From Ruminococcus sp. (GTDB lineage: Bacteria; Bacillota; Clostridia; Oscillospirales; Ruminococcaceae), in the NCBI GenBank assembly GCA_017542125.1, contig JAFXXU010000058.1, forward strand, positions 186,001-250,000: a stretch of DNA of 64,000 nt. Reading direction: 5' to 3'. The position numbers were made by a program, and so were the translations under genes. This document shows, piece by piece, positions 4,271 through 10,362 of the stretch (positions are counted from its first letter, which is position 1; the number at the start of each line of letters is the position of its first letter). The notes under the pieces were generated by a model. That model searched no databases and was not told the origin of the DNA. It worked only from the letters and a program-made list of their open reading frames with translations.

Positions 4271-6265
4271 TCAGGAAATGTCAGCCATTTCCAGATAGTC
4301 GTGACCGTACTGGTTTATAAAGTCCTTTCGGCCCTGGAGATCGTCACCCAGAAGCATATCGAACATATAAGCTGTGTCCTCCACAGAATCGGGGTTGACC
4401 TTGATGAGCCTGCGGGTGTCAGGGTTCATAGTTGTGAGAGCCATCATATCAGGCTCGTTCTCACCGAGACCCTTTGAGCGCTGGAGGATGTATTTCTTCC
4501 CCTCGATCTTTTTAAGGATGTCTGCCTTCTCGGTCTCATCGTAGGCAAAATATTTCATCTCGTCCTTTTTATCCTTGACCGTGATCTCATAAAGGGGAGA
4601 TTCCGCGATGAACACATAGCCCATTTCTATAAGGGTAGGGCAGAGGCGATAGATCATAGTCAGTATGAGCGTCCTGATCTGAAAGCCGTCGTAGTCCGCA
4701 TCGGTACAGATCACGATCTTGCTCCATTTGAGGTTGTCGAGATTGAACAGCGAAAGATCCTTGTTTGCCTTGCTCTTGACCTCAACACCGCAGCCAAGCA
4801 CCTTAATTAGATCGGTAATGATCTCGCTCTTGAAGATGCGGTCGTAATCGGCTTTGAGGCAGTTGAGTATCTTTCCTCTTACTGGCATAACAGCCTGGAA
4901 TTCCGAATCCCGTGCCATCTTGACAGAACCCAGTGCCGAGTCACCCTCCACGATATAGAGCTCGCGCTTTGAGAGCTCCTTTGAGCGGCAGTCAACGAAC
5001 TTTTGCACCTGATTAGCAAGGTCTATCTTCTGGGTCAGCGTCTTGGCGATGTTGAGCCTGGTCTTCTCGGCATGCTCGCGGCTGCGCTTGTTGATCAGCA
5101 CCTGCTCGGCTATCTTAACTGCTTCGTCGGGGTTCTCGATGAAGTAGACCTCTATCTGATGCTTCAGGAACTCGGTCATACATTCCTTGATGAACTTGTT
5201 GGTGATAGCTTTCTTGGTCTGGTTCGCGTAAGAGGTCTGTGTCGAGAATGAGCTTGATACAAGCACAAGGCTTTCCTCAACATCGGCAAAGGTTATGGGC
5301 TTCTCGCTTTTCAGATACTTGTTGGTGTTTTTCAGGTAGGCGTTTATCTGCGACTGAAAAGCAGATTTAACAGCCTCCTGAGGCGAACCGCCGTGCTCCA
5401 GGAAGGAGGAATTGTGGAAATATTCCTGTATCTTCATCTTGTTTGAGAAGGTGAAGGCAACCGAGAGCTTTACCTTGTAGTCATCCTTGTCCTCACGGTC
5501 ACGGCCTTTTCTCTCGCCCTGAACATACTGTATCGAGGTAAGGTTGTCCTCACCCACAAGCTCGGCGGCGTAATCAGCGATTCCGTTCTCGTAGTAGTAA
5601 ACGGTCTCCTCAAAGCTGCCGTTCTCGCGCTGGTAACGGAATACGAACTTTACCTGCGGATTGACCACCGCCTGCTTTTTGAGGATGTCCTCAAAGTATT
5701 CACGCTCGATGTCGATATCGGTGAAAACATCGAGGTCGGGCTTCCAGCGGGTGCGGGTGCCGGTCTTTTTACGGTTAGTGGGTTCTGATTTAAGCCCTCC
5801 GATGTTCTTGCCCTTTTCAAAGTGGAGCTCAAACCTCTGCCCGTCGCGGTAGACCTCAACGTCCATATACTCCGAGGCATACTGGGTAGCACAGGCACCG
5901 AGACCGTTAAGGCCCAGCGAGAACTCATAGTTGTCGCCGGAGTTGTTATCGTACTTGCCGCCGCCGTAAAGCTCACAGTAGACGATCTCCCAGTTGTAGC
6001 GCTTCTCCACCTTGTTGTAATCAACAGGGCAGCCGCGGCCGAAGTCCTCAACCTCAATGGAGAGGTCGTTATAGCGGGTCAGAATGATCTTGTCGCCGTT
6101 TCCGTCACGCGCCTCGTCAATTGAGTTTGAGAGTATCTCGAATACTGCGTGCTTGCAGCCTTCAAGCCCGTCCGAGCCGAAGATAACGGCTGGGCGCAGC
6201 CTTACTCGTTCCTCGTCTTTCAGCAGCTTAAGCGATTCGTTATCATAGTCCTTTTTCTTAGGCAT
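4271..6265 (-). CDS. Type II DNA topoisomerase subunit B (ParE/GyrB family)
   Basis: This 664-residue ATPase subunit has a GHKL fold: NSIDEARDG near residue 47, DFGRGCPV near 74 and GLNGLGACATQ near 118. The Toprim domain carries EGDSALGS (Glu440) and DADYDG (522-527), which supply the metal-binding acids. Both motifs depart from the usual EGDSAGGS and DADVDG, marking a divergent branch. Length fits ParE (about 630-660) rather than long GyrB forms. It is first in an operon with subunit A. The start at 6263-6265 (ATG) is preceded by AAGGAAGGG. The promoter is at 6314-6343. Confidence 0.92.
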   Translation of the reverse strand: MPKKKDYDNESLKLLKDEERVRLRPAVIFGSDGLEGCKHAVFEILSNSIDEARDGNGDKIILTRYNDLSIEVEDFGRGCPVDYNKVEKRYNWEIVYCELYGGGKYDNNSGDNYEFSLGLNGLGACATQYASEYMDVEVYRDGQRFELHFEKGKNIGGLKSEPTNRKKTGTRTRWKPDLDVFTDIDIEREYFEDILKKQAVVNPQVKFVFRYQRENGSFEETVYYYENGIADYAAELVGEDNLTSIQYVQGERKGRDREDKDDYKVKLSVAFTFSNKMKIQEYFHNSSFLEHGGSPQEAVKSAFQSQINAYLKNTNKYLKSEKPITFADVEESLVLVSSSFSTQTSYANQTKKAITNKFIKECMTEFLKHQIEVYFIENPDEAVKIAEQVLINKRSREHAEKTRLNIAKTLTQKIDLANQVQKFVDCRSKELSKRELYIVEGDSALGSVKMARDSEFQAVMPVRGKILNCLKADYDRIFKSEIITDLIKVLGCGVEVKSKANKDLSLFNLDNLKWSKIVICTDADYDGFQIRTLILTMIYRLCPTLIEMGYVFIAESPLYEITVKDKKDEMKYFAYDETEKADILKKIEGKKYILQRSKGLGENEPDMMALTTMNPDTRRLIKVNPDSVEDTAYMFDMLLGDDLQGRKDFINQYGHDYLEMADIS

Positions 6266-6313
6266 TTATCTTATCCCTTCCTTTTTATCGGTCAAATTTT
6301 CATATCAAGAATT

Positions 6314-6343
6314 ATTATAACACAAGAACTGCGGTTTTGTCAA
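6314..6343 (-). promoter_or_regulatory. Sigma-A type promoter for the topoisomerase operon
   Basis: Read on the minus strand, TTGACA (6338-6343) and TATAAT (6314-6319) are separated by 18 bp, about 50 nt upstream of the subunit B start. Both hexamers are perfect. Confidence 0.85.
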
Positions 6344-6432
6344 TCACTAAATCACAATATGTACGCATTATCGGACTGATACCAATATCTGTTAATGTGA
6401 TGGAGCGTTCGGTGATGTCTTTTTCAATGTGA

Positions 6433-6461
6433 TTGACTTTTTTTTAGGTGTGTGATATAAT
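6433..6461 (+). promoter_or_regulatory. Sigma-A type promoter for the zinc-ribbon membrane protein
   Basis: TTGACT (6433-6438) and TATAAT (6456-6461) are spaced by 17 bp and lie 65 nt before the ATG at 6526. The 260-nt gap upstream also holds the divergent topoisomerase promoter; nothing else is seen in it. Confidence 0.85.
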
Positions 6462-6525
6462 AACTGTGACCGTACATTTTTGCGGTTCGTTGAGCATTAT
6501 TATGTTATAAAAGGTGGGGTAGTGT

Positions 6526-7359
6526 ATGAAATGTCCCAAATGCGGCGAAAACGCCAATAAAGATGACAGGATATGCAGAAACTGCGGTACCGTATTAAAG
6601 AAGGAGAAGAAAAGCTTGCTTTCACTTTTCACCGGTAAAAAGAATAAGTCAGCAGCTCCCTCAAATGTCCCTCTGCTGGAGACTAAAGGCGGCGGGCTTG
6701 ACAGCGGTAAGTTCAAATACATCAAGAATGCCGCAGTAGTCGGAGCCATCGCTGTTATTGTTATTCTTGTGCTTGTCCTTATATTCCACGTTGCCTCCGG
6801 AAAGGGCTTGAAGCAGGCGGAGAAGTTCTCGGGCTATATTGGCTCAAAGGTCTCTGTGGCCGAAAAGGAGCTGGAGATCCATCTGAAGGACAGCAGTTCG
6901 TTCACATCTGTCAATAAAGCCGATAAGTTTGATTTCATCTATGAGTCCGAGGATGATATCTCGGTAAGCGATGTTAAGTTCCCTGAGTGGACTGTCACCA
7001 TCTTGAAGACCGATTCAGAGAAGATAGACCAGGTCATTTTCACCGATTACCGCGTCCTCAAAAAGGACAGCAGGGGTCAGAAGACCGATAAGCGCATCGA
7101 CCTCGACAAGTATGACACAAGCTCTAAGATGTCCACCGTCCTCGATGATATCGACATCGACCCTTTCAGGATCACCTACGATGTTTCCTACATAAAGTAT
7201 GAGTTCCGATATTACTATAAGCTGGATAACGGCGATGTCCAGAGCGTCATTCTCAATGTTGTTTCAAATATTGATAACAAGTTTATGTACAGTATTTCCG
7301 ATGACGTCTATCCCGTTGAACTGTCCATAGCTGAGCCTGCTCCGAGGGCAGATCAGTAG
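6526..7359 (+). CDS. Zinc-ribbon membrane protein of unknown function
   Basis: The 277-residue protein starts with a zinc ribbon (CPKCGENA...CRNCG, residues 3-20), then a basic linker, one membrane segment near residues 68-88 (AVVGAIAVIVILVLVLIFHVA) and a soluble domain outside the membrane. That topology places the ribbon in the cytoplasm. The outer domain is rich in charged and beta-forming residues and I do not recognise it. The gene has its own promoter and RBS (GGTGGGG) and precedes the PASTA pseudokinase, which has its own promoter and also opens with a zinc ribbon. A similar architecture recurs at 45571-46332. Function is unknown; a sensor or envelope role is only a guess. Confidence 0.8.
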   Translation: MKCPKCGENANKDDRICRNCGTVLKKEKKSLLSLFTGKKNKSAAPSNVPLLETKGGGLDSGKFKYIKNAAVVGAIAVIVILVLVLIFHVASGKGLKQAEKFSGYIGSKVSVAEKELEIHLKDSSSFTSVNKADKFDFIYESEDDISVSDVKFPEWTVTILKTDSEKIDQVIFTDYRVLKKDSRGQKTDKRIDLDKYDTSSKMSTVLDDIDIDPFRITYDVSYIKYEFRYYYKLDNGDVQSVILNVVSNIDNKFMYSISDDVYPVELSIAEPAPRADQ

Positions 7360-7411
7360 TTACAGAAATAATACAAATTGTTGCATAAAGCATACAGTTT
7401 GCCCTTTTTTC

Positions 7412-7440
7412 TTGACTATTTCGCCATTTGCTGATATTAT
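7412..7440 (+). promoter_or_regulatory. Sigma-A type promoter for the PASTA pseudokinase
   Basis: TTGACT (7412-7417) and TATTAT (7435-7440) are 17 bp apart and 37 nt before the start codon at 7477. Confidence 0.8.
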
Positions 7441-7476
7441 TTACATTGAACAGAAATCTATCTAAGGAGGATCAGC

Positions 7477-9243
7477 GTGGATACAGGTTCTAAGCTTTGT
7501 ATGGGCTGTATGAATGAGCTTGATGAAAACGGCGTCTGCCATTATTGCAGCTACTCCGACGATATACCTCATCTTCAGTCTTATCTTGCGCCCAGAACTG
7601 TCCTCGATGACAGATATATCATCGGCAAGATGCTTTCCTATAACGGCGAGGGCGCTTCATATATATGCTATGATATGATCAGAAAGTGCAAGGCTGTTGC
7701 GAGGGAGTATATGCCCGATACGCTCTGTGAGCGTGAAAGGGGCAGCTCAAATATCATCGTTAATCCCGAATGTCTTGCCAAGTATAAGACTTATATGTCC
7801 GAGTTTACTGATATGAACAAGGTCCTTTCAAGAATGAAGAACCTTACCCATATCTCCACTGCTATGGACATTTTCGTTGAGAACAACACCACCTATGTTA
7901 TTCTCGAATACGTCGAGGGCGTTTCCCTCAAGAAATTCCTGCAGACAAATACCGGCTATCTGACCTGGAACCGGGTCAAGAAGCTGTTTATGCCTCTGTT
8001 CACTACTCTCAGCATCATCCATAATGCAGGTATCATCCACAGAGGTATATCTCCCGAGAATATCATCGTGACTACAGATGGGGAGCTGAAGCTCACAGGC
8101 TTCTCCATCAGCTCCATAAGAACGTCAAATACCGGGCTCAGCTCCGAGTTCTATTCGGGATACACCGCTCCGGAGCAGTATTCATCCCTTGCATATCAGG
8201 GCACCTGGACGGATGTTTATGCCGTTGCTGCCGTGCTTTACAGGATACTGACAGGCTGTATGCCTCTTGACGCAAGCACGAGACTCACTAACGATACTCT
8301 CGTTCCCGCTACAAGGATCAACCCCGGCATACCTGTGTATGTTTCAAACGTCCTCTCCCATGCTATGGCTGTCCGCGGTGAGGACAGGATCCAGACCATC
8401 AACGATTTTGTTACCCAGCTATTTGACAAGCATTACCAGCTGGAGCATCAGAAGGGCGCTACTCAGACAATCCCTATCCAGCGCCAGCAAAGGAGCTCAT
8501 CCTCACGCTCCGGCAGCGGAAAGAATACCAAGAACGCCGAGAAATCCAATACAGCCTCTGTTATAGCGGCGATAATCATTGTCGTTGTCTTCCTGGCTCT
8601 GGGCGGCGTGATGCTTGCACTGCTCCTTACTCCTCCCGATAAGAGCAAGGATTCCAGTACAGTTGTCAGCTTCCCGGACGATACCGCGCAGACGGGCATC
8701 CAGACCTCTGCTACACTTGAACCGATCATCACGATCTCTTCGGCAGCGGAAGAGGATTCACCCTACGGCACAGGCGCCGTAATGCCCGAGCTCAGCGGCA
8801 AGAGGTACGAGACCGTTGTAAATCAGCTGGGCAATGAGTTCACTATCAGGGCTGAGTATTATTACTCCGATGTTGAGCAGAAGGGCCTTATTGCAGAGCA
8901 GAGCATCCCTGCCGGCACCGAGTACGATCCTCAGAGAAAGAACGAGCTCGTTGTCAAGGTCTGCAAGGGTTCAGAGAACGTTCCTGTTCCTTCCTATGCG
9001 GGCAAGACCTATAAGGCTTATTCCGAGCTGCTGGATTCCCTCGATATCAAGTATAAGAAGGTCGAGATCGACTCCAAGCAGGTGCCTATCGGGTATGTTG
9101 TTTCCACCGATATCGGTGTGGGTTACAATGTTAACATCAAGAACGGCGAAGTGCTGACTGTAAGAGTATCCAAGGGCATTACCGTTACCACAAAGGCTAC
9201 CGAAAAAGCGCCCGATACTCCCGCTGAGCAGCCCGCTCAATAA
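7477..9243 (+). CDS. PASTA-domain membrane kinase-like protein, predicted pseudokinase
   Basis: The 588-residue protein has a short zinc ribbon (CMGC...CHYC, residues 8-24), a Ser/Thr kinase fold (about 45-318), a Ser-rich linker, one membrane helix (361-384) and two PASTA repeats outside (about 436-498 and 502-568). This is the layout of PrkC/PknB-type receptors that sense wall muropeptides. However, the usual VAIK lysine is Arg76 (VAREYMP), the HRD aspartate is Gly190 (HRGISPEN) and the DFG motif reads GFS (208-210). The structural APE (231-233) and Asn195 remain. So it probably does not phosphorylate but may bind ligand or partner proteins. The start is GTG at 7477 behind AAGGAGG. No PP2C phosphatase gene is nearby. 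Confidence 0.88.
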   Translation: MDTGSKLCMGCMNELDENGVCHYCSYSDDIPHLQSYLAPRTVLDDRYIIGKMLSYNGEGASYICYDMIRKCKAVAREYMPDTLCERERGSSNIIVNPECLAKYKTYMSEFTDMNKVLSRMKNLTHISTAMDIFVENNTTYVILEYVEGVSLKKFLQTNTGYLTWNRVKKLFMPLFTTLSIIHNAGIIHRGISPENIIVTTDGELKLTGFSISSIRTSNTGLSSEFYSGYTAPEQYSSLAYQGTWTDVYAVAAVLYRILTGCMPLDASTRLTNDTLVPATRINPGIPVYVSNVLSHAMAVRGEDRIQTINDFVTQLFDKHYQLEHQKGATQTIPIQRQQRSSSSRSGSGKNTKNAEKSNTASVIAAIIIVVVFLALGGVMLALLLTPPDKSKDSSTVVSFPDDTAQTGIQTSATLEPIITISSAAEEDSPYGTGAVMPELSGKRYETVVNQLGNEFTIRAEYYYSDVEQKGLIAEQSIPAGTEYDPQRKNELVVKVCKGSENVPVPSYAGKTYKAYSELLDSLDIKYKKVEIDSKQVPIGYVVSTDIGVGYNVNIKNGEVLTVRVSKGITVTTKATEKAPDTPAEQPAQ

Positions 9244-9303
9244 CAGTGATGTATCAATTGTTACCAAAAACCCGAAAACGATTAAAATATTGTTAAACCT
9301 TTG

Positions 9304-9332
9304 ATAAACCCTTGACAATGTCAAGGGTTTAT
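9304..9332 (+). promoter_or_regulatory. Perfect 29-nt palindrome over the pfkA -35 box, candidate operator
   Basis: Two 14-nt arms (ATAAACCCTTGACA and its exact reverse complement) flank a single central A at 9318. The left arm contains the TTGACA of the pfkA promoter, so a dimeric regulator bound here would cover the -35 box. As RNA it could also fold and end transcription from the upstream gene, but no clean U-run follows. I see no other terminator between the pseudokinase and pfkA. Confidence 0.7.
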
Positions 9333-9340
9333 GCTATTAT
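9312..9340 (+). promoter_or_regulatory. Promoter of pfkA
   Basis: TTGACA (9312-9317) and TATTAT (9335-9340) are separated by 17 bp, 60 nt upstream of the ATG. A TATAAT follows at 9341-9346 but would need a 23-bp spacer. Confidence 0.75.
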
Positions 9341-9399
9341 TATAATGTTGTTTAGACGATTTCTTTGGAGAAATTAACACATATTGGAGGAAATTAGTT

Positions 9400-10362
9400 A
9401 TGGCTCGTAAAATTGGCGTGCTTACCAGCGGAGGAGATGCTCCGGGAATGAATGCGGCTGTCCGTGCCGTGACCAGAGCTGCTCTGCAGAGAGGGATGGA
9501 AGTCGTAGGTATCCGCAGAGGATATGTAGGTCTTCTTTCGGGTGACGTTGTTGAGATGAATGCCCGTTCCGTATCCGGTATTATCCAGCGCGGCGGTACT
9601 TTCCTCTACACCGCAAGATGCCCCGAATTCAGAGATATGGAAGGCGTTAAGAAGGGCTATGAAATGTGCAAGAAGCTCGGTCTTGACGGACTTGTAGTTA
9701 TCGGCGGCGACGGTTCTTTCAGAGGTGCCGGCGATCTTTCTTCTCTTGGCATCCCCTGCATCGGTCTGCCGGGTACTATTGATAACGATATCCAGTGCAC
9801 CGAATATACTATCGGCTACGATACCGCTATGAACACCGCTATGGAAATGATCGATAAGATCCGTGATACCACACAGTCCCATGATCGCTGCTCTGTAATC
9901 GAGGTAATGGGCAGAAATGCCGGCTTTATCGCAGTAAACGTTGCTATCGCAGTTGGCGCTGAGGCTGCTATCACCCTTGAAGAGCCCTATGACCTCAACA
10001 AGATCGCTCACGATATGCTCCAGGCAAAGAAGAGCGGCAAGTCCCACTTCCTTATCGTAGTTGCCGAGGGCGTTGGCCAGACTGATGTTATCGCAAAGAA
10101 CATCAAGGATATGACCGGTATCGACTCCAGAGTTACTATCCTGGGTCACGTTCAGCGCGGCGGTTCGCCTACGCTGAGAGACAGAGTACTTGCTTCTGAA
10201 ATGGGCTACCACGCTGTTGAACTGCTTGAGCAGGGCATCGGCAACAGGATCGTCGGCCTCAAGGACGGCAAGGTCTATGACATTGATCTCCAGGAAGGTC
10301 TTGCAATGAAGAAGGATTTCATCCATAAGAGATATGAGGTCCTCACCAAGACTGCATTCTGA
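9400..10362 (+). CDS. pfkA: ATP-dependent 6-phosphofructokinase
   Basis: The enzyme turns fructose 6-phosphate into fructose 1,6-bisphosphate, the committed step of glycolysis. At 320 residues it has the normal bacterial length. The N-terminal LTSGGDAPGMNAAVRA, the ATP site GGDGSFRGA (near 102-110), the catalytic PGTIDNDI (near 123-130) and the C-terminal GHVQRGGSPT are all present. GGDGS is the motif of ATP-dependent rather than pyrophosphate-dependent forms. The ATG has GGAGG at a good distance. It is the only glycolytic gene here, and its promoter carries the palindrome described separately. The folate genes follow after the riboswitch. Confidence 0.97.
   Translation: MARKIGVLTSGGDAPGMNAAVRAVTRAALQRGMEVVGIRRGYVGLLSGDVVEMNARSVSGIIQRGGTFLYTARCPEFRDMEGVKKGYEMCKKLGLDGLVVIGGDGSFRGAGDLSSLGIPCIGLPGTIDNDIQCTEYTIGYDTAMNTAMEMIDKIRDTTQSHDRCSVIEVMGRNAGFIAVNVAIAVGAEAAITLEEPYDLNKIAHDMLQAKKSGKSHFLIVVAEGVGQTDVIAKNIKDMTGIDSRVTILGHVQRGGSPTLRDRVLASEMGYHAVELLEQGIGNRIVGLKDGKVYDIDLQEGLAMKKDFIHKRYEVLTKTAF

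Follow-up and report, generated by a model that had tools for sequence, protein, structure and literature searches.

The gene at positions 7477..9243 (+ strand) of the window, the 64,000-nucleotide stretch of a Ruminococcus sp. genome analysed here, encodes a membrane protein that is built like a PASTA receptor kinase and whose kinase domain has lost the catalytic Lys and both catalytic Asp residues. The reading preferred here, to which slightly less than an even chance is given, is that this catalytically dead receptor is retained to work with the active kinase PrkC, beside which it would serve as a co-receptor, a scaffold or a substrate. Studies of PASTA signalling usually centre on a single active kinase; in the bacterial family to which this genome belongs, a PASTA protein that is very probably unable to phosphorylate is nearly as widespread as PrkC itself.

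The open reading frame starts with GTG, runs for 588 codons with zero internal stops, and is preceded by a strong Shine-Dalgarno sequence, AAGGAGG, at 7464-7470. A promoter-like site (TTGACT-17-TATTAT, with TG preceding the second hexamer) lies at 7412..7440, 36 bases 5' of the start codon; such sites were called by consensus match only, and 18 of them were seen at 6200-9700 against 5.7 expected from shuffles. A first reading of the DNA, made from the sequence only, had proposed a membrane PASTA kinase with an N-terminal zinc ribbon, and this architecture is confirmed by Pfam, hydropathy and alignment. The four cysteines of the ribbon (C8-x2-C11 and C21-x2-C24, 7498..7548) are invariant in 27/27 aligned proteins. 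They are followed by a kinase-fold domain at residues 43-316 (7603..8424; Pfam Pkinase, 3.1e-25), whose relatives in the PDB are PpkA, StkP and PknB, by a linker of about 45 residues, and by one transmembrane helix at residues ~361-386 (8557..8634), the most hydrophobic 19-residue stretch starting at residue 366. Two PASTA domains (Pfam PF03793) occupy residues 435-485 (8779..8931, 29.7 bits) and 502-566 (8980..9174, 34.4 bits), all these features being on the + strand. PASTA domains are present in 61/61 family members scanned; one pseudokinase member of 381 aa (L031 / L208, genome G018) ends past the transmembrane helix and has no room for them.

All the residues named in the sequence-only reading are correct, as judged from the translation and the alignment of relatives: R76 (7702..7704, +) stands at the position of the β3 (VAIK) Lys, H188-R189-G190 (8038..8046, +) at HRD and G208-F209-S210 (8098..8106, +) at DFG, and A231-P232-E233 (APE) is retained. 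Its statement that all catalytic signature residues had been lost holds for the Lys, the HRD Asp and the DFG Asp, but is too broad, as H188, R189, the catalytic-loop N195 and the αF D246 remain. There are also losses beyond those three: the αC Glu is replaced by M113 (7813..7815, +), and the glycine loop has changed from LGxGGFG to LSYNGEG, with Ser and Asn at the Gly positions 54 and 56 and an acidic residue, E58 (7648..7650, +), where intact zinc-ribbon kinases have Phe. The nearest solved kinase found with the family profile is PpkA (5hnv, E 5.8e-43); the losses fall at the same columns, and the activation loop through APEQY runs along that of PpkA without a large deletion. With a recognisable protein kinase domain, matched by Pfam and by PDB kinases, and with the VAIK Lys, HRD Asp and DFG Asp all missing, the protein is classified by its sequence as a pseudokinase. 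It does carry PASTA domains after one transmembrane helix, but it is not filed as a PASTA kinase, because intact catalytic residues are lacking; it scores 157.5 bits against NCBIfam NF033483, below the cut-off of 450 bits, and the PrkC of the same genome scores 596. Kinase activity is very probably absent, since without a catalytic base, a metal-binding Asp and an αC Glu phosphotransfer is very unlikely, and the protein probably signals by binding instead of phosphorylating.

The conservation of these losses was read in 193 aligned rows that were sorted, after the motifs had been seen, into 156 pseudokinases, 25 intact zinc-ribbon kinases, 8 PrkC proteins and 4 pseudokinases of a second type; one kinase-like protein (L005) gave no match, another entry (L003) was omitted as a duplicate, and dropping 5 identical domains left 151 unique pseudokinase rows. 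The HRD Asp and the αC Glu are each kept in 0/151 of them and the DFG Asp in 16/151, and not one row keeps the Lys and both Asp together. The β3 column carries a letter in 149 rows, Lys in 42, Arg in 103 and His in 3, so that the residue is basic in 148/149. At position 58 an acid, Glu or Asp, stands in 145/151 rows and Phe in 25/25 intact kinases; among the 149 rows with letters at both columns, 145 combine this acid with Arg, Lys or His at position 76. The column of N195 holds Thr in 82/151 rows, and the loop glycines are changed. The Lys, the αC Glu and both Asp are present in all 8 PrkC proteins and in all 25 rows sorted as intact zinc-ribbon kinases, the latter also having the Asn and the DFG Gly throughout.

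Because those groups had been sorted with the motifs in sight, an independent count was made on all 73 matches from 80 genomes of the bacterial family, picked by profile score alone and including the protein of the window; the score is not clean at its low end, where an intact kinase (L185, 401 bits) tops a few true members. The HRD Asp is absent from 73/73 of these rows (Gly 67, Ala 5, His 1) and the αC Glu from 72/72, the DFG Asp is kept in 7/73 and the β3 Lys in 27/71, and an acid stands at position 58 in 70 of the 71 rows with a letter. The expectation that all three losses would be conserved in relatives is thus upheld in full for the HRD Asp and only in part for the other two, although G190 and G208 are nearly invariant in 27 relatives.

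As a second independent test, a tree of 101 kinase domains was built by maximum likelihood. The pseudokinase family forms one clade in it (support 100/98, recovered in all 200 bootstrap trees), and the intact kinases all fall outside, which indicates that catalysis was, most simply, lost once. The tree holds 64 members of the family (besides the window protein, alternate rows of a set thinned at 90% identity, L030 and L031 included), 25 intact zinc-ribbon kinases, 8 PrkC proteins and 4 pseudokinases of the second type. In the four closest pairs examined, amino-acid identity is 91-95% in the kinase domain, 71-85% in the PASTA region and 39-75% in the linkers. Since dS was saturated in most of eight pairs, the kinase and PASTA values of the two least saturated pairs alone were used: ω is 0.037 (window protein and L007) and 0.035 (L011 and L013) in the kinase domain, and 0.21 and 0.12, respectively, in the PASTA region. 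By these comparisons constraint within the protein is strongest on the dead kinase domain, and strong purifying selection on the pseudokinase is well supported. Orthologues are carried by 10/15 other genomes of the genus; they are 61-81% identical, have open frames and share R, HRG and GF[SC] with the window protein. Judged by sequence, the gene is neither in decay nor a one-off, and the distinction between pseudokinase and decay drawn in the sequence-only reading is sustained by the HRD Asp (0/73), by an ω of ~0.04 in the kinase domain and by the single clade.

The pseudokinase is close to universal among good genomes of its bacterial family. Drawing 80 genomes (79 genera) gave a pseudokinase match in 73, a single one each at E 1e-95; good genomes, defined by completeness >=90% and contamination <=5%, have it in 57/57 cases, and the 7 misses all lie outside this class. 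Together with 18 more good genomes from a scan of the order and three of the same genus (G003, G006 and G009), it is present in 78/79 good genomes. The sole exception is the same-genus G012 (1.5 Mb, 93% complete, 160 contigs), in which the family profile matches PrkC only and the PASTA matches other than those of PrkC sit in a 782-aa frame. A profile search did not find the pseudokinase in four further genomes of the genus (G002, G007, G008 and G013), which are 63-85% complete. Among the matches listed from a 295-genome scan of the order, the own bacterial family appears with 26 genomes, all at 410 bits or higher, a second family (f24) with 24 at no less than 368 bits and one more partial match, and a third (f23) with one. 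At the level of the class, 27 of 391 genomes match at 1e-90; full-length members occur in 14 of them, from the own family (f1) and f24 only, and in the remaining 13 genomes 14 of the 20 listed matches were fetched, all 14 being intact kinases. The named relatives, whose 80 loci are the best-scoring ones and not an even draw, are labelled Ruminococcus, Ruminiclostridium, Oscillospiraceae and Clostridia; they are mostly metagenome-assembled and include R. flavefaciens ATCC 19208.

An intact PASTA kinase elsewhere in the genome, whose presence the sequence-only reading had left to be checked, was found: PrkC, with three PASTA matches, on contig 31. It is one of five Pkinase matches in all; the other four are an intact zinc-ribbon kinase, the window pseudokinase, another PASTA pseudokinase (six PASTA matches) and a kinase-like protein of degenerate sequence. 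Sequence kinship argues against a degraded PrkC: the nearest intact kin of the window pseudokinase are the zinc-ribbon kinases (own-genome scores of 162 bits for L002 and 76 bits for PrkC). In the 80-genome draw, PrkC occurs in 75 genomes and in 57/57 good ones. Six genomes of 0.7-1.7 Mb, hand-picked for their size and at least 90% complete, contain exactly two Pkinase matches each, the pseudokinase and a PrkC that is intact, with HRD and DFG seen in 6/6; a seventh small genome, 83% complete, has the pseudokinase alone. Both genes are kept in a genome of 0.7 Mb (G370, 97% complete), and the 1.5-Mb G012 has PrkC alone. This distribution suggests that PrkC and the pseudokinase work together, with the reservation that co-presence is weak evidence of pairing, because almost any two core genes co-occur. 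Against pairing, PrkC and the pseudokinase are encoded on separate contigs of the own genome, and G012 indicates either that PrkC can stand alone or that the second gene fell in an assembly gap. The six small genomes offer a clean setting in which to ask about pseudokinase co-receptors of PASTA kinases.

The second PASTA pseudokinase of the genome (L196, 901 aa; locus at contig 67: 52500-66500, outside the window) belongs to a clade of its own, reads IGG at HRD and NSY at DFG, and is also carried by same-genus loci (L131-L133). It lies beside an intact zinc-ribbon kinase, two PP2C phosphatases and two FtsK/SpoIIIE-type ATPases, and the locus includes an FHA-like protein with a weak PF16697 match only (E 0.0016); as a whole it resembles a locus for type VII secretion, at which this pseudokinase may stand in for EssB. 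The degenerate kinase-like protein (L005, contig 44: 68184-68492) has YQD near HRD and DCD near DFG, carries a cysteine-rich C-terminal stretch, and adjoins a protein that by eye reads as von Willebrand-like.

In the model proposed here, the ligands of the two PASTA domains outside the membrane would be precursors or fragments of the wall, and the kinase fold inside, closed by a salt bridge between E58 and R76 in place of ATP, would offer a docking surface. This bridge at the place of the ATP phosphates is suggested by the conservation of the acid at 58 together with the base at 76; a comparable filling of that place is known from VRK3. The pseudokinase would then pair with PrkC or be phosphorylated by it, and its dead fold would recruit wall or division factors. 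In the own lineage, candidate sites for phosphorylation by PrkC are Thr329 and Thr331 of the juxtamembrane motif TQTIPI (residues 329-334, 8461..8478, + strand), which lies in a conserved part of the linker: all 11 proteins of the genus, own included, agree at residues 324 and 326-333 (H-x-KGATQTIP), and divergence sets in from residue 337. Across the family, TQT[IVLM] occurs in the linkers of 31/124 non-redundant members, compared with a mean of 0.27 and a maximum of 2 in shuffled linkers, but these are not independent events, because rows of one lineage share the motif by descent, and its absence from 93/124 members counts against pairing with PrkC. The juxtamembrane phosphothreonines of StkP act in division, according to the part of PMC12077195 available, and by analogy it is a reasonable guess that the linker threonine may be phosphorylated and then read by a partner. 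A general FHA reader was not found, Pfam FHA domains being present in 3/9 genomes and absent from the own one, and the scheme of MviN and FhaA, in which FHA reads a phosphothreonine, was rejected as a general one on this count.

A broader version of the preferred reading is unlikely as it stands, although well short of far-fetched: that PrkC and a nucleotide-free PASTA co-receptor form a near-core pair governing wall signalling across this family of gut Clostridia, with the closed fold setting the activity of PrkC allosterically, somewhat as HER3 does with HER2 in animals. Under this version, the gene would be kept down to a genome of 0.7 Mb since PrkC signalling would rarely work well without it.

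A PASTA scaffold that is independent of PrkC, holding wall material outside and recruiting an envelope or division factor through the dead fold, the zinc ribbon or the linker motif, in the manner of EssB/YukC in type VII secretion, is the most credible of the alternatives, possible though doubtful. It would accommodate the presence of PrkC without the pseudokinase in G012, a kinase domain conserved above the PASTA domains, as befits a docking surface, and a short linker motif invariant in the genus. Neither does the neighbourhood point to PrkC: across 79 loci the pseudokinase has no steady neighbour, the recurrent ones being largely lineage-specific genes recognised by eye, and there is no direct sign of contact with PrkC. 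This alternative is weakened by the joint occurrence of PASTA domains and a kinase fold in the known wall-signalling kinases, and by the six small genomes, in which PrkC is the sole other Pkinase protein found.

Upstream of the pseudokinase, at 6526..7359 (+), lies a gene for a zinc-ribbon membrane protein of 277 aa with a single transmembrane helix and a conserved outer domain. Its family is found one to three genes 5' of the pseudokinase in 18/79 loci with differing surroundings, and in 10/80 genomes of the bacterial family, beside the pseudokinase in 6 and on another contig in 4. It is possibly a lineage-specific partner, and as a general partner it was rejected on its presence in those 10/80 genomes only. 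Downstream, a 13-pair palindrome, ATAAACCCTTGACAATGTCAAGGGTTTAT (window 9304-9332), overlaps the first hexamer of a promoter-like site before a phosphofructokinase gene, and is a candidate terminator of the pseudokinase gene, a candidate operator of the phosphofructokinase gene, or both.

That the protein is a nucleotide binder or another kind of enzyme, as SelO or SidJ, making use of R76 and other residues, is improbable. It could draw on the basic residue kept at β3 (Arg 103, Lys 42 and His 3 of 149), on the DFG Asp that survives in 7/73 score-picked rows, and on the DYD pseudokinases, which share the β3 Arg and the lack of the αC Glu and are predicted ATP binders in the portion of PMC12599244 at hand. 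SelO and SidJ, as that portion describes them, nevertheless retain the Lys and a DFG-type Asp. The window protein has neither Asp nor Glu at the HRD or DFG columns, where the family has them in 1/151 and 18/151 rows, and the replacement of N195 by Thr in 82/151 rows and the altered loop glycines also speak against binding of this kind.

A working protein kinase with relocated catalytic acids, for which E. coli YegI, reportedly a kinase lacking conserved motifs, might serve as a precedent, is very improbable. Acids shifted to nearby positions, the finding that would have overturned the sequence-only reading, were sought in the 151 unique rows, and none is common near HRD or DFG. Positions 186-193 hold just one Asp or Glu at 187 and one at 190, the latter a Glu at the HRD column, and around the DFG column acids stand at 208 itself (18 rows) and at 210 (2 rows). 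The acid at 194 (117/151 pseudokinase rows) is not a relocated catalytic Asp, because intact kinases also have Asp there (23/25). Position 112, beside the αC Glu column, is Glu in 82/151 rows and Asp in the window protein; a shift of the helix register by which it would replace the αC Glu is unlikely, because 112 is Glu in 7/25 intact kinases too. Decay of the gene, or an error of annotation or sequencing, for which the absence of the gene from 5/15 other same-genus genomes (one of them good, the exception G012) might be cited, was rejected as having a negligible chance on the open frames and identical losses of the 10 same-genus orthologues, the low ω, the 57/57 good genomes of the even draw and the 73 score-picked rows.

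Among known systems, the PASTA kinases PrkC, PknB and StkP (NF033483) share with the window protein the kinase fold, the juxtamembrane linker, one transmembrane helix and extracellular PASTA domains, whereas the pseudokinase lacks the catalytic Lys and both Asp, has an N-terminal zinc ribbon and forms a separate clade. The zinc-ribbon kinases of Clostridia (such as L002, C67:58739 of the own genome) have in common with it the ribbon, a KE[YF]xP-type motif after β3 and EQY after the activation loop, but the 25 sorted as intact retain their catalytic residues (25/25), and L002 has no PASTA match. EssB/YukC, from Firmicutes, is likewise a pseudokinase of the membrane, with a scaffolding role, and it is not known to have a PASTA domain. 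Unlike the window protein, it serves type VII secretion and has a reduced activation loop (PMC12599244, available part); zero secretion genes were recognised among the 10 window proteins that were domain-scanned. CD2148 of Clostridioides difficile, compared by its description in the accessible text of PMC9674922, is also a degenerate kinase that a clostridium has in addition to PrkC: it may be a pseudokinase, depends on PrkC for its phosphorylation in vitro, and differs in being reported without the GT/S and SPE motifs.

The 2025 review PMC12599244, in the part available, covers ActPs1-3, DLHK, GLW, CP1 and DYD in addition to EssB, SidJ and SelO, and none of its seven pseudokinase or pseudokinase-rich families is described there with the PASTA and zinc-ribbon architecture or with the HRG/GF signature; the word 'PASTA' appears once, in a reference title, and 'zinc' nowhere. 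ActPs2 combines a β3 Arg with HRN, a deleted DFG and insertions of 32 and 250 residues, of which only the Arg is found here, beside HRG and GFS and no such insertions, and the GLW that replaces HRD in the family of that name is HRG here. No description of the pseudokinase family was seen among the papers listed by searches of open-licence literature, although the bacterial Ser/Thr kinase atlas on which the review draws may hold it under another label. In the libraries searched it is likewise unnamed, with generic kinase and PASTA matches in Pfam and below-cut-off matches only in NCBIfam; with labels so generic, genome annotations may present it as active. Most bacterial pseudokinases have, to our knowledge, no known function.

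The pseudokinase domain of MviN in Mycobacterium (ActPs3) is fused to a lipid II flippase and is not known to have PASTA domains or a zinc ribbon. As set out in the available text of PMC12599244, it too is a membrane pseudokinase in wall control and is the substrate of a PASTA kinase, but it is part of a larger protein of Actinobacteria with a deletion in its activation loop, and no such deletion is seen here. The DYD pseudokinases of Actinobacteria and Firmicutes, by the same partial source, are membrane-associated, with a β3 Arg and no αC Glu, which is also the state of the window protein (R76, M113); in them the second Asp of DYD pairs with the Arg, whereas here the motif is G-F-S without such an Asp, and no DYD was seen at 208-210 in the family rows displayed from the 193-row and 73-row alignments. 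The nearest known system is DYD by residues and MviN by function.
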